From: Acidimicrobiaceae bacterium
GTDB taxonomy: Bacteria > Actinomycetota > Acidimicrobiia > Acidimicrobiales > RAAP-2
Assembly: GCA_003170315.1 (NCBI GenBank)
Contig: PNAH01000025.1
Location: 34,063 to 98,062 of the forward strand
Length of the DNA stretch: 64,000 bases
Direction: 5' to 3'
Shown here in pieces: positions 27,368-51,417 of the stretch (position 1 is the first letter of the stretch; each line of letters opens with the position of its first letter). A program made the translations under genes and the position numbers. The notes below the pieces were generated by a model that did not search any database, was not told where the DNA came from, and was given only the letters and a program-made list of their open reading frames with translations.

Positions 27368-27415
27368 GCACCCCCAACGGGATTCGAACCCATGCCGCCA
27401 CCTTGAAAGGGGTGG
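27368..27415 (-). repeat. tRNA-Glu 3' fragment (att site A)
   Basis: gcacccccaacgggattcgaacccatgccgccaccttgaaaggggtgg: matches 51344-51390 with 1 substitution and 1 inserted g. Confidence 0.9.
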
Positions 27416-30438: not shown

Positions 30439-30485
30439 GCACCCCCAACGGGATTCGAACCCGTGCCGCCACCTTGAAAGGTTGG
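30439..30485 (-). repeat. tRNA-Glu 3' fragment (att site B)
   Basis: gcacccccaacgggattcgaacccgtgccgccaccttgaaaggttgg, 1 mismatch to 51344-51390. Confidence 0.93.
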
Positions 30486-46153: not shown

Positions 46154-46361
46154 TAGGCACCAGTGAAATTCCTTTCACAGAAGCACCACCTGGCAATATT
46201 CAGTTCATCTTTGACATCGTTCAAACAAAACTTGACAAATGAAGTCATGCAAACCCGGTGAAAGCTTTGGATTCGGCAAGCAGAATTGGTCGAGCCTCTT
46301 GGCGTCACCAGCTTCCTAAGCTAAGGCCTTATAAATAGAGGGTTTTAGGCCAATTTCCAGA

Positions 46362-46408
46362 GCACCCCCAACGGGATTCGAACCCGTGCCGCCACCTTGA
46401 AAGGGTGG
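46362..46408 (-). repeat. tRNA-Glu 3' fragment (att site C)
   Basis: 47 bp identical to 51344-51390. Confidence 0.95.
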
Positions 46409-46485: not shown

Positions 46486-46509
46486 TTTGGGCATTCTACG
46501 GGCATTAAC
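46486..46509. repeat. 11-bp-phased GGGCAT pair next to att C
   Basis: ctttgggcattctacgggcattaa. Confidence 0.65.
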
Positions 46510-46567: not shown

Positions 46568-47476
46568 TCATTGACCTTCGGTATGTTGCTCCAAGTTAAT
46601 GTCAATACGGTTGCTATCGCGATAGTCCGCAGCGCAGACCTCTCGGTCAGTTCCACAGGATCGAACTGAGCATGGAACGCCTATGTCGTTGCCGACGGAT
46701 TCGACAACGTCGCCGATGAGCGCCCGAATGGTTTCGGCATCGATACCGGTGTGCGGCGTAATCAATACCAACTCCAACTTGGTCGGATTGGAGATGCTGT
46801 CAGTGATGACACGAAACTGGACGCCACGCAATGACTCTTCGGCGTCGATGACGGCACGCTCCAACGCCGGAATCATCTCGTCGTCCACTACCGTCGGAAG
46901 CGCCGGACGGTCTGCGCGATGCCCCAGTTCTTGGCCAAACTCGATCTGATCTTCACGGCTAGCGAATGCCGAAATGACATCACGCCCAACTAGGACGCCT
47001 TTGTCGAGCGGGATTTGGATACGAAGGTCAACTAACCATGCCCAATCGTCGGGATCAGATTTCCTTTCTTGCTCAGCAGTTTGGGCATTGGTCAAGTAGT
47101 TCTTCAGATTCGGAGCGGTTACGGCGTAGTAGTACAAGAATTGTGTGCGGCTCCTAATGCGCTGGATCTCGCCTGCCTTGAAGTGCTTCGAGCCGTTGAA
47201 CACGGGCGACGCGTGAATGAAGGGGATGTTCAACTTCTGAACGTCGCATGTTTGGTCGCGGATAATGAAAAACGGAGGCTCAGGTTCTGAGCCGACGCCA
47301 CCAACCTCAAGTGACCTCGGAGGATTGGGAAACACATGGTCCGTGGCCCAGCTCGATGCAACTACACCGGCTCGCGCAACATAAGCGGTCAAAGGGTTGA
47401 GTAGCAGGTGGCCCTGTTCAAAACGACCGCAAGCGGCAACCAAATCGGAATCGAATGGCAGAACGCTGCGCAGCAC
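46568..47476 (-). CDS. uncharacterised protein with FIIRDQTCDVQ motif
   Basis: 302 aa ORF, 2-nt gap to upstream HTH gene (operon). Confidence 0.65.
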   Translation of the reverse strand: MLRSVLPFDSDLVAACGRFEQGHLLLNPLTAYVARAGVVASSWATDHVFPNPPRSLEVGGVGSEPEPPFFIIRDQTCDVQKLNIPFIHASPVFNGSKHFKAGEIQRIRSRTQFLYYYAVTAPNLKNYLTNAQTAEQERKSDPDDWAWLVDLRIQIPLDKGVLVGRDVISAFASREDQIEFGQELGHRADRPALPTVVDDEMIPALERAVIDAEESLRGVQFRVITDSISNPTKLELVLITPHTGIDAETIRALIGDVVESVGNDIGVPCSVRSCGTDREVCAADYRDSNRIDINLEQHTEGQ

Positions 47477-47478
47477 GA

Positions 47479-48207
47479 CTACCGACCCTCGTCCAGCGTC
47501 TCCGGCTCGTCGTCATTCTCGAAGCGGACAGAACGCTCCCCCCGACGAGGACCGGAGAGCAGTTGATCTAGCTCGTGAGCGACGGAACCGATGTCGCCCG
47601 AGAGGATCAGTTCAGCGCGCGACGGCGTTTTCTCGGCAAACCATTCTTGAGCCCCTCGCAATCCGAAGACCTTGACAGCAACGCCCGTCACGCCAAAAAT
47701 GCGATCCAGGCCACGGCGCGATGGGGGCCTTGGCACCGTCGTTCCTTTTGCCCAAGCAAAAAGACTGGCCCTGCTTACTCCAGCAGCGTCGCCGATTTCT
47801 TCTGCTGTAGCACCTAGCACAATGCGCGCCTCATATAAACGTCGCGCGATGACTCCGGTCTCGTGAAGAGTTTCTGTGGCTGCCGGGAGAGCCGACGGTC
47901 GAAGAAAATGATCGCGGGTCAAGGTAAAGACAAAGACTGGTTGTTGCAGCGTTAGACCGGTTGCAATCAAGTACTCAGATTGAGGTGGTCGAACTACTTC
48001 AGCAGCCGTCGCCTTCAGTCCAAGAGCCCAATGAATGAGGGACCCACTCTCCGGCCACTCGAACTCACTCGTTTCAATGCGGCGCAAGTCAACGTAAGTT
48101 GGAACAGGAAAGCCGATCTTCTGCTCGTAACTGTCCTCTTCGTCGACAGACGTGGTTTGGTCCGGACTCACAAGAGTTGCAACACTGCTTAGAGAACGCA
48201 TTGTCAC
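47479..48207 (-). CDS. HTH-containing protein (XRE-like HTH; Xre/ParS-antitoxin-like C-terminus)
   Basis: IVLGATAEEIGDAAGVSRASLFAWAKGTTVPRPPSRRGLDRIFG. Confidence 0.65.
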   Translation of the reverse strand: MTMRSLSSVATLVSPDQTTSVDEEDSYEQKIGFPVPTYVDLRRIETSEFEWPESGSLIHWALGLKATAAEVVRPPQSEYLIATGLTLQQPVFVFTLTRDHFLRPSALPAATETLHETGVIARRLYEARIVLGATAEEIGDAAGVSRASLFAWAKGTTVPRPPSRRGLDRIFGVTGVAVKVFGLRGAQEWFAEKTPSRAELILSGDIGSVAHELDQLLSGPRRGERSVRFENDDEPETLDEGR

Positions 48208-48959
48208 TTGCCTACGCGCAACTTTTCGAAGTACTCCGAGGTGAGGCAGCCGATGAAGACTTGATCCGCCTTGGCATGGAATGATTCATAAACCTTGCGC
48301 ACACTCGAACCGTCGTAAGCGCCCTTCACCTCTCGGAAAAGGTCGGTGTCGATGATGTAGTGACTGTTCAAGGGCGGTGCGGTTGAATATCCGTGCCGGA
48401 GAAGACAAGTCGCATCACCATCGAAGGAAAAGATGACTCGTTGCTCGATTGTCGTAATCTCAGACCCAATATCGGGATGCAGAATCGGTCCCAAAAGTTC
48501 ATCTCGAACAAAACCATTCCACGATGCTTCGACACCCTCTATTGAATCGAGCTCGTCGATATATCGCAAACCAACACGTTGTTCCGTGGCAGGTTGAACG
48601 AGTTCCTCGACTGCGCCCAAAAGTCTCTCAAGTTGAGCGCGGAAATTGCTCCAGTCGAGGTAGCGAGTGACCTCTAGAGCGACTGAACTCTCTAGAACCA
48701 CGATTTTCGCATCATCGGAACTCAGCGACCAACCGCCTTCTGCGGAATCCGCGACGGTTACCATCCCCGCAGGACTGGCCGTGATCTGACGAACATTCGC
48801 TTGTTCAATGACGGAGAACTCGTCTCCAACCTGTTTGGCGAGACGCGTGACGAACCCCGCTTCGGCCACCTCTGCATGACGTTCGAAGCGAACCTGGGCC
48901 ACCACGAGTTTCACCGGAGCGTTTGCCAGGATGCCCTTCATTTTTTTGGTCGTCGCCAT
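48204..48959 (-). CDS. TIGR04255-like family protein
   Basis: APVKLVVAQVRFERH...GWSLSSDDAKIVVLESSVALEVTRYLDWSNFRAQLERLLGAVEEL...QRVGLRYIDEL; 4-nt overlap with next gene. Confidence 0.65.
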   Translation of the reverse strand: MATTKKMKGILANAPVKLVVAQVRFERHAEVAEAGFVTRLAKQVGDEFSVIEQANVRQITASPAGMVTVADSAEGGWSLSSDDAKIVVLESSVALEVTRYLDWSNFRAQLERLLGAVEELVQPATEQRVGLRYIDELDSIEGVEASWNGFVRDELLGPILHPDIGSEITTIEQRVIFSFDGDATCLLRHGYSTAPPLNSHYIIDTDLFREVKGAYDGSSVRKVYESFHAKADQVFIGCLTSEYFEKLRVGK

Positions 48960-49254: not shown

Positions 49255-50736
49255 ATGAAGATTCTCGTCGACACAAATGTCTTCATTGCGGCGGAGGACA
49301 TTTCGCGAGACAGCGTTCACGTCAATGCCGAACTCGCAACGGAGTTTGTATCGCTTTGCAGACGGGTTGGTGTCGAACTGTTTGTTCATCCAGCGACGCG
49401 CGACGACATCCGACGCACCGACGACCAAGACCTGAGACGTGCGTCGGAGATGAAACTTCGACAGTGGGGAATGCTCCGAGAATCGCCGACGCCTTTCGAT
49501 CTAGCCGCGCGAGCCGGATACACTCGACCGCTTTCAGAAAATGACCAATCTGATCTGCAACTTCTTACAGCTCTTGAGTCGCGCTCAGTCGATTTGTTGG
49601 TAACGGAGGATCGGGGGCTACTGCGTCGAGCCGCTCGTGCTGGCCTCGAAACGAGGGCAATCCGCCTGTTGGGGTCCATCGACTATTTGAAGCAACTGTT
49701 CGGCGAACTTGTTACGCCCCCGGCAGTCGAATCGGTTCTGGCCTACGAGATTTCACCGGATGAAGGAATTCTGTCATCCGTTCGGGATGAATACACGACA
49801 GCTGGCGATTCATTTGACGCGTGGTTCGACAAGGTTCGCGGTGAGCACCGTGAGTGTCGAGTGATTCGAACACCGTCCGGTCCGATTCAAGGACTTGCCA
49901 TCTACAAAACGGAAGTCGATCATCCCTTTGGTATCCAAGGTAAGACTCTCAAAATATGCACTTTCAAAATTGCGCCCGATGCTGTAGGTGCGAAGCGCGG
50001 TGAACTTCTGTTGAAGGCGACGCTGCAATATGCAAACGCAACAGAAATGGACGCAATCTACGTAACGCTCTTCGAGCGTCACACGGGGCTCGCCAACCTT
50101 CTTGAGCGATTCGGATTCGCCCAACTCGAGGAACGTTCTTCGCGAGGAGAGATCGTCTACGTCAAATCCATGCGACCGGACGAATTTGAGGAAGAACTGA
50201 GCCCTCTCGACTTTCATATTAAATTCGGTCCGCCTGCACTAAAAGTCCGCCGAGCATTCGTCGTTCCCATACAACCGGAGTATCACGACATTCTCTTTCC
50301 GGAGGCCGCCATCAGGCCCTCGATGTTCGGGCCCGAGCCATCAGGGAACGCAATCCTGAAAGCGTATTTGTGTCGGTCACCAACCACTCTGCTCCGAGCT
50401 GGCGACGCGCTTCTTTTCTATCGTTCACATGATTTGAGTGCGGTGACTGCGATTGGTGTTGTCGAGTCGGCAGAACGCATTTTCGAACCTACCGCCGTAC
50501 GCGAGCGAGTCGGATTTCGAACGGTATATCCCGATAGTGAGATACGGGCAATGTTCTCTCGTGGGCCTTTTGTACTGACCATCCTCTTTCGCCAGGACAG
50601 ATTGGTTAATCCTGTATGGGGGATCAATGAACTGAAACATCGTGGTGTAGTGCGATCGGCACCTCAGTCGATTGTGCAGGTTACTGACAATGGAGCGATG
50701 GAATGGGTAAGGGATCAACTCGAAGGACAGCCCTGA
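49255..50736 (+). CDS. PIN nuclease - GNAT - EVE/PUA-like multidomain protein
   Basis: N-term MKILVDTNVFIAAEDISRD...LLVTEDRGLLRRA; middle LKICTFKIAPDAVGAKRGELLLKATLQYANATEMDAIYVTLFERHTGLANLLERFGF; C-term AGDALLFYRSHDLSAVTAIGVVES. Confidence 0.75.
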   Translation: MKILVDTNVFIAAEDISRDSVHVNAELATEFVSLCRRVGVELFVHPATRDDIRRTDDQDLRRASEMKLRQWGMLRESPTPFDLAARAGYTRPLSENDQSDLQLLTALESRSVDLLVTEDRGLLRRAARAGLETRAIRLLGSIDYLKQLFGELVTPPAVESVLAYEISPDEGILSSVRDEYTTAGDSFDAWFDKVRGEHRECRVIRTPSGPIQGLAIYKTEVDHPFGIQGKTLKICTFKIAPDAVGAKRGELLLKATLQYANATEMDAIYVTLFERHTGLANLLERFGFAQLEERSSRGEIVYVKSMRPDEFEEELSPLDFHIKFGPPALKVRRAFVVPIQPEYHDILFPEAAIRPSMFGPEPSGNAILKAYLCRSPTTLLRAGDALLFYRSHDLSAVTAIGVVESAERIFEPTAVRERVGFRTVYPDSEIRAMFSRGPFVLTILFRQDRLVNPVWGINELKHRGVVRSAPQSIVQVTDNGAMEWVRDQLEGQP

Positions 50737-51107
50737 TGTCTATTAGACCCGAGTACGTGGAAGCGATTATTTCGGGCGCGAAAACCGTTGAGTTCAGGAA
50801 GCAGCGACTTGCCCCAGACGTTGAGACTGTGGTCATTTACGCGACATCGCCAATTAAGGCGGTCGTGGGAGAATTTGAAATTACGTCGCAGGTTTCTAAG
50901 TCACCAGCGGGTCTGTGGCAGGAGTTCAAACTGGTCTCCGGCATCGACCGGCGACGTTTTTTCGAATATTTTCGTGGACGATCCAGCGGTGTCGGAATCG
51001 TGATTGGAAATGTGACTGCCTACGCTCCCCAGAAGCGACTGGAGGACATAGCTCCAGGATCACGTCCGCCGCAAAGTTTTCGATATCTTGAGGATTCGGC
51101 GGCGTAG
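50736..51107 (+). CDS. ASCH domain protein
   Basis: MSIRPEYVEAIISGAKTVEFRKQRLAPDVETVVIYATSPIKAVVGEFEI; TGATG stop/start overlap with PIN-GNAT gene. Confidence 0.8.
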   Translation: MSIRPEYVEAIISGAKTVEFRKQRLAPDVETVVIYATSPIKAVVGEFEITSQVSKSPAGLWQEFKLVSGIDRRRFFEYFRGRSSGVGIVIGNVTAYAPQKRLEDIAPGSRPPQSFRYLEDSAA

Positions 51108-51135: not shown

Positions 51136-51344
51136 GTGAACACCACCTGAGATCGGTGGTGGCAGAGTTGAGGCCTAAACCATTGACCCGTAAGGATTCT
51201 CCGGCCGCTTGAATCAATTTCGAGTCAGTTTTGGGCATTGAATGGGCATCAGTTGGGCATTAACTGCTCCATTTCGGAGAAAATATCGCAATTTCGTGGC
51301 GTCTGCCCAATTGCAGAAATGAGCCATCACCAGGAATTATGAAG
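51136..51344. repeat. element right-end module next to tRNA-Glu: hairpin + three 11-bp-phased GGGCAT repeats
   Basis: gtgaaCACCACCtgagatcGGTGGTGg ... ttttgggcattgaatgggcatcagttgggcattaac ... caggaattatgaagcacccccaacggg. Confidence 0.7.
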
Positions 51345-51417
51345 CACCCCCAACGGGATTCGAACCCGTGCCGCCACCTTGAAAGGGTGGTGTCCTAGGC
51401 CGCTAGACGATGGGGGC
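51345..51417 (-). tRNA. tRNA-Glu(TTC)
   Basis: GCCCCCATCGTCTAGCGGCCTAGGACACCACCCTTTCAAGGTGGCGGCACGGGTTCGAATCCCGTTGGGGGTG cloverleaf. Confidence 0.96.

Follow-up and report, generated by a model that had tools for sequence, protein, structure and literature searches.

In the window, the whole 64,000-nt stretch of an Acidimicrobiaceae genome that was analysed, a gene for a three-domain fusion protein (gene A) overlaps a gene for a small ASCH protein (gene B) on a segment integrated at a tRNA gene. What does such a pair do, and is the combination new? An earlier note on this DNA had proposed a defence or toxin module directed at RNA, and had called the combination unusual. We consider it moderately probable that the two genes form an anti-invader module that works like a toxin-antitoxin system and belongs to the PDC-M11, or (PIN)-GNAT-EVE + ASCH, family. 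Its features are as follows:

49255-50736, + strand: gene A, PIN-GNAT-PUA/ASCH-like fusion of 493 aa, PADLOC PDC-M11A, longer homologue of GevT
49255-49692, + strand: PIN-like domain, about residues 1-146, with conserved acidic residues D6, D51, D97, D100 and D119 plus N8 (Pfam, family alignment, predicted strands and helices)
49768-50169, + strand: GNAT domain, about residues 172-305, motif A G245-x-K-x-G249-E250 (predicted structure, Pfam, alignment)
50230-50733, + strand: C-terminal PUA-superfamily (ASCH/EVE-like) reader domain, about residues 326-493, with a PQS motif common to gene B (fold and profile comparison)
50703-51107, + strand: gene B, ASCH protein of 134 aa from the likely ATG at 50703 (123 aa from the ATG at 50736), PDC-M11B, relative of GevA and ZmASCH

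Conservation and distribution of gene A

In the open reading frame list of the 64-kb window, gene A starts with an ATG at 49255 and its stop codon ends at 50736. Both the 493-aa protein and the ASCH-domain gene of the earlier note were found in place, the latter with a Pfam ASCH match above the cut-off. An Acidimicrobiaceae MAG (L001) has a copy of gene A at 94% identity; comparison of the two across 421 codons gave a dN/dS of 0.07. Gene A is under strong purifying selection and is a real, conserved gene.

A scan of genome contigs with the single protein gave one relative, and the remaining family was drawn from other sources. Relatives at 24-49% identity retain the PIN and GNAT signature residues. 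Most matches to PDC-M11A in a search of the phylum were generic GNAT or PIN proteins, at E values of 1e-3 to 1e-6, and were dropped. Full-length gene A was present in 3 of the 346 genomes sampled from the class, a sporadic distribution as would be expected of mobile defence or toxin genes. Promoter and terminator scans of the locus returned nothing above chance level.

Domain organization of gene A

The PIN-like domain proposed earlier for the N-terminus was borne out by the family as a whole. On the gene A protein, Pfam PIN_3 matched residues 2-120 (profile positions 1-114 of 115) at E=0.0096, which is under the curated cut-off; it was detected in 18 of 23 family members, with a best E value of 4e-6. 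D6, N8, D97, D100 and D119 are invariant in all 21 PIN-bearing members, and position 51 is Asp or Glu in each of them. The N-terminus of the predicted structure shows a PIN-like alternation of strands and helices. No PIN fold was present among the 50 structural matches listed for the gene A model, so that the PIN assignment is based on profile matches of the sequences and on conserved positions.

The GNAT-like middle likewise gained support from the relatives. The Pfam match of the gene A protein alone was weak (E=0.03); Acetyltransf_1 was detected in 18 of 23 members (best E value 1e-9), and both glycines of the GxKxGE motif are kept in 23/23. Foldseek matches of this part in the PDB include NatD, NAA50 and the bacterial toxin 7byy.

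For the C-terminal segment, the earlier label "EVE/PUA-like" was right as to the PUA-superfamily fold, but EVE proper was not established: Pfam EVE had no match in the gene A protein and matched 4 of 23 relatives, at best with E=0.007. In the model this domain is beta-rich, and no PDB entry matches it better than ZmASCH, which reaches a target TM of up to 0.82. As modelled, it is nearer in fold to ASCH than to EVE. The predicted structure, built from a nine-sequence alignment, has a mean pLDDT of 79 and a pTM of 0.51, the latter too low to fix the arrangement of the domains.

Gene B and its start

Gene B was predicted with a pLDDT of 91 and matches ZmASCH at 1.7 A rmsd (E=2e-12); its family profile finds ZmASCH at E=8e-34. 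Conserved residues in the family alignment are K27, R32, Y46 and S125. ZmASCH is a nucleic-acid-binding protein that cuts single-stranded RNA, to which Tyr47, Lys53 and Ser128 contribute (PMC5615036); by motif, these three residues correspond to Y46, K52 and S125 of gene B. Across the aligned gene B family, Y46 is invariant, S125 nearly invariant and K52 not conserved. By analogy with ZmASCH, which is an RNase, gene B could be an enzyme rather than an inhibitor.

In a profile comparison, gene B and the C-terminal domain of gene A aligned over nearly the full length of gene B (probability 84%, pairwise E=8e-6), and a PQS motif lies close to the end of both. This alignment and the shared motif suggest that the partner is probably homologous to the effector's own C-terminal reader domain.

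The earlier note had the two genes meet in a TGATG, with the start of gene B at 50736. The genes do overlap, but the start is more likely at 50703, and coupling through the TGATG was judged less likely than through a 34-nt overlap. The ATG at 50703 overlaps gene A by 34 nt and gives MGKGSTRRTALMSIRPEY, matching MGTEAVGRVALMSIHPEF in the viral L062. The same 34-nt overlap occurs in the window, G512, G535 and L062, and overlaps of 23-32 nt in several other relatives; such overlaps being common in the family, the start at 50703 is favoured. A start at 50736 would truncate the predicted first strand of gene B. A purine-rich stretch precedes both ATGs.

The ASCH fold also brings up a different enzymatic role, in which the GNAT domain would N-acetylate a nucleobase, to give for example N4-acetylcytidine, and the product would be removed by the ASCH partner, as YqfB does. 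YqfB is an ASCH protein with ac4C amidohydrolase activity (PMC6972931) and is found among the fold matches of gene B (9kyf), and K27 and R32 correspond by motif to its catalytic K21 and R26. Acetylation of DNA bases was proposed by Iyer et al., according to the passage in PMC7641849 that cites them. At four rhizobial loci, the PIN-GNAT-EVE gene is accompanied by another ASCH gene in antisense orientation, with a KxxTxR motif like that of YqfB. In gene B itself, however, the position of the YqfB nucleophile Thr24 is occupied near-invariantly by Glu (E30, in KTVEFR), and the loss of this Thr weakens the case for ac4C writing and erasing; the fold match to YqfB is also weak (E=0.008, versus 2e-12 for ZmASCH). 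We regard such a pair as decidedly unlikely. The second rhizobial genes are:

L048:9491-9874, - strand: second ASCH gene
L049:9515-10006, - strand: second ASCH gene
L060:9521-10015, - strand: second ASCH gene
L059:9515-10012, - strand: second ASCH gene

The second rhizobial ASCH gene is followed by a small ATPase (AAA_17 in L048), and a link to ac4C amidohydrolases is possible; a sequence search with this second ASCH did not find YqfB. A profile comparison between the gene B family and these sequences was set aside as circular, since the alignment held two of them.

Pairing of genes A and B

In 31 of 31 complete gene A loci examined, gene B is adjacent and on the same strand, usually overlapping. 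These loci come from six genomes (the window's included), 15 plasmids, 2 phages and 8 viral contigs, two of the last probably being one sequence, and they span Actinomycetota, Pseudomonadota, Halobacteria, phages and viral contigs. Gene B lies either downstream with an overlap, as in the window, or upstream with an overlap in alphaproteobacteria, where it is often fused to an HTH domain. The only exception to the pairing is L001, a contig that stops inside gene A.

Five places carry a broken gene A with an intact gene B (psiM2, G113, a Helicobacter prophage, L054 and L070) and none the reverse, an asymmetry with a chance expectation of about 30% under neutrality and not significant after length correction, because gene A is 3.7 times longer than gene B. 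In psiM2 (L136:2197-2893) the ASCH gene is kept and the PIN-GNAT-EVE gene is reduced to about its last 40 codons; its relative psiM100 (L044:3001-4846) has both genes whole. A deletion in psiM2 may account for what is termed the "inserted fragment IFa" in psiM100. In G113 (L005:1501-1974), gene A has lost an internal part in frame, so that its PIN domain runs straight into its final 45 residues; the ASCH gene is intact.

On two contigs from the same genus the protein is a variant of 684-685 aa, in which an additional GNAT domain comes first, followed by PIN, a degenerate-looking GNAT-like middle and the reader domain (L034:1393-3450 and L035:1387-3441, both - strand). It keeps its ASCH partner (L034:954-1493 and L035:948-1421, both - strand), and restriction genes adjoin. 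In streptococcal and oenococcal phages, a GevA-like ASCH gene stands behind a short GNAT-fragment gene (L134:2706-3384, L135:2656-3363, L131:2516-3372), in L134 and L135 upstream of terminase; an origin of these fragments as decayed gene A was not supported by the gene A profile.

Neighbourhoods of the relatives

Known defence genes recur beside the relatives, as counted by eye and without a background rate. In G084 (L114:2454-8793) the pair directly follows pglZ and brxL at the end of a BREX operon. Other relatives adjoin an Mrr endonuclease (G535), a type IIG restriction-modification gene (the G537 variant), or an Eco57I-type methylase with an SNF2/PLD helicase (the G531 variant). On a Halalkaliarchaeum plasmid the pair is near type I-B cas genes, in R. 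etli near NACHT and ABC-three-component genes, in S. meliloti near VapC, in S. garamanticum near AbiEii and in P. ureafaciens near a methylase and a restriction endonuclease. The window's own segment holds no further known defence gene according to the PADLOC profiles.

Such neighbours would also suit a restriction system for modified nucleic acids, in which genes A and B act as a sensor-effector with two readers, not as toxin and antitoxin: the PUA domains would recognise phage-specific modified bases, bring the PIN RNase, along with acetylation, to the RNA or DNA of the phage, and leave host molecules that lack the modification untouched. EVE, ASCH and PUA domains do read modified bases (PMC7641849), each module has two reader domains, and relatives adjoin restriction and BREX genes. 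On the other side stand the GNAT-EVE forms that lack PIN. They retain the same ASCH partner, so that the nuclease is dispensable to the pairing, and they are carried by phages themselves. We consider this form of restriction unlikely.

The neighbourhoods agree with what the earlier note had put forward as a candidate defence or toxin module, as do PDC-M11, the prediction of Bell et al. and the GevT/GevA record discussed below. That note had also named in advance what would speak against it, namely missing PIN acidic residues, a missing GNAT fold or homologues in housekeeping contexts only; the residues and the fold were found, and the contexts are not confined to housekeeping.

A mobile segment at tRNA-Glu

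The placement on a mobile element next to a tRNA gene, also noted earlier, was corroborated by an exact repeat of 48 nt from the tRNA-Glu 3' half at both ends (48/48 nt identical), which encloses a segment of 4.98 kb with the A/B module. Its parts outside the module are:

46361-46408, no strand: left copy of the attachment site, identical over 48 nt to the 3' half of tRNA-Glu
46486-46509, no strand: putative integrase arm-type repeat TTTGGGCATTCTACGGGCATTAAC, inside the left end
46568-48959, - strand: co-carried, tightly packed cassette of three genes, for a 302-aa protein, an HTH protein (242 aa) and a TIGR04255 family protein (251 aa)
51230-51264, no strand: related arm-like repeats, TGGGCAT three times, ending in GGGCATTAAC, inside the right end
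51343-51390, no strand: right attachment site, within the intact tRNA-Glu(UUC) gene (51344-51417, - strand)

Within the genome itself, exact matches to the pattern of the TTTGGGCATTCTACGGGCATTAAC repeat occur only beside attachment-site copies. Two of these copies have a 24-nt motif, TTTGGGCATnCTACGGGCATTAAC, behind them at about +125 nt. Elsewhere in the genome the motif has a single match, with three mismatches, some 1.1 kb beyond the copy near 27369. Repeats related to TTTGGGCATnCTACGGGCATTAAC are also present inside the right end of the segment and, in several relatives, next to tRNA-Glu. This placement fits arm-type integrase sites.

Extra copies of the tRNA-Glu 3' end were found at 30439-30481, where 43 nt agree exactly, and near 27369, where a 31-base pattern has one mismatch. 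The genome has no further ones; all are on the window's contig and in a single orientation. The copies at 27369, 30439-30481, 46361-46408 and 51343-51390 delimit segments of about 3.1, 15.9 and 5.0 kb. A search for tyrosine integrases gave no Phage_integrase match on the window's contig. The tandem tRNA-Glu array is an integration hot spot that gathers cargo without an integrase. In two genomes of the same genus (L116:2973-3016, L117:4133-4176) the tRNA-Glu lacks about its middle 32 bases including the anticodon, by deletion or assembly error.

L001 starts at the same tRNA-Glu fragment, has other genes ahead of gene A and lacks the window's three-gene cassette, and in G535 a tRNA-Glu fragment follows the A/B pair. 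With the attachment-site copies and the lack of a tyrosine integrase on the contig, these layouts indicate that the pair is carried as cargo by a segment that is non-autonomous or decayed, and that the genes beside the pair are exchanged.

Carriage on an integrase-less segment flanked by attachment sites, and in relatives on plasmids and prophages, would also be expected of a cassette that merely stabilises its carrier by addiction and has no anti-phage role. Defence neighbours, however, occur on non-plasmid genome contigs too, and addiction and defence are not mutually exclusive; to addiction as the whole function we give very little probability.

Proposed function of the module

The anti-invader module proposed at the outset draws on what was observed: the domains, their active-site residues, the strict pairing of A and B, the defence neighbours of relatives, the similarity of gene B to the reader domain and the tRNA-integrated segment. 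From these we infer toxicity, an antitoxin role for gene B, the acetylated substrate and protection against phages. Gene A would be the toxic effector. Its PUA-type C-terminal domain would hold a nucleic-acid target and the GNAT domain would acetylate it, the leading candidates being aminoacyl-tRNA or an RNA base; the PIN domain may cut RNA. The RNA-targeting role in the earlier note is plausible by analogy, given the PIN domain and the ZmASCH relative. Gene B, translationally coupled to gene A, would restrain it, most likely by binding it or by competing for its ligand, and infection or loss of the segment would upset the balance.

The likely homology of gene B to the reader domain of gene A suggests ligand competition or direct pairing. 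More specifically, gene B may be a paralogue of the effector's reader, catalytic or RNA-binding like ZmASCH, that exerts control by mimicking it as a decoy or pseudo-dimer on a shared nucleic-acid ligand, a tentative idea on the unlikely side. If true, it would imply a toxin-antitoxin logic unlike that of the known GNAT-RHH systems, and the solved ZmASCH would mean that an antitoxin-side structure of the family is already in hand.

Comparison with known systems

The combination has already been described and is widespread in bacteria, archaea and their viruses. Since PADLOC, Bell et al. and, for the PIN-less form, a phage record already list this architecture, "unusual" in the earlier note does not stand; the window's pair adds a member. 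Gene A matches PADLOC PDC-M11A (PDLC04421) at E=4e-159 over profile positions 1-485 of 486, and gene B matches PDC-M11B (PDLC04425) over the full length at E=1.5e-44. The window thus agrees with PDC-M11, itself a candidate system, in both full-length proteins and in the adjacency of the genes.

Bell et al. (2020) described PIN-GNAT-EVE fusions with an ASCH partner, predicted a toxin-antitoxin function and noted an association with type I restriction-modification; none of these modules had been characterised at that time (PMC7641849). The window shares the PIN-GNAT-PUA order and the ASCH partner with these operons, and its relatives share the defence neighbourhood. In contrast, neither an AAA_17 ATPase nor type I restriction-modification was found on the window's segment, and the fold of the C-terminal domain lies nearer to ASCH than to EVE. 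A literature search found no toxicity or defence experiment on the PIN-GNAT-EVE + ASCH architecture.

In Escherichia phage PhiR47_2 (PV340567), a PIN-less homologue is annotated as "GevT toxin" and its partner as "GevA antitoxin"; both match the PDC-M11 models. A literature search gave no paper on GevT/GevA, and both names trace to this one database record. The GNAT-EVE region of GevT is homologous to gene A over residues 170-445 (25.8% identity), the ASCH proteins are 40% identical and the genes overlap as in the window, but GevT has no PIN domain.

ZmASCH (ZMO0922, PDB 5gus/5guq), a single-stranded RNase, resembles gene B in profile, fold and the Tyr, Lys and Ser residues of its cleft; the RNase activity is that of ZmASCH, which gene B resembles in sequence and predicted fold. 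GNAT-RHH (DUF1778) type II toxin-antitoxin systems likewise combine a GNAT effector with a small partner gene, and the toxin 7byy is among the fold matches of gene A. The window differs from them in that the partner is ASCH, not RHH/DUF1778, and in its additional PIN and PUA domains.

The locus contributes a divergent actinobacterial sequence to a family widespread in bacteria, archaea, plasmids and phages, and it illustrates cleanly how a small segment of cargo can occupy a tRNA hot spot without an integrase. Through the comparison, three questions become open to direct test: which of the two halves is toxic, whether the ASCH protein works by mimicking the reader or as an RNase, and whether ac4C-type acetylation plays a part.
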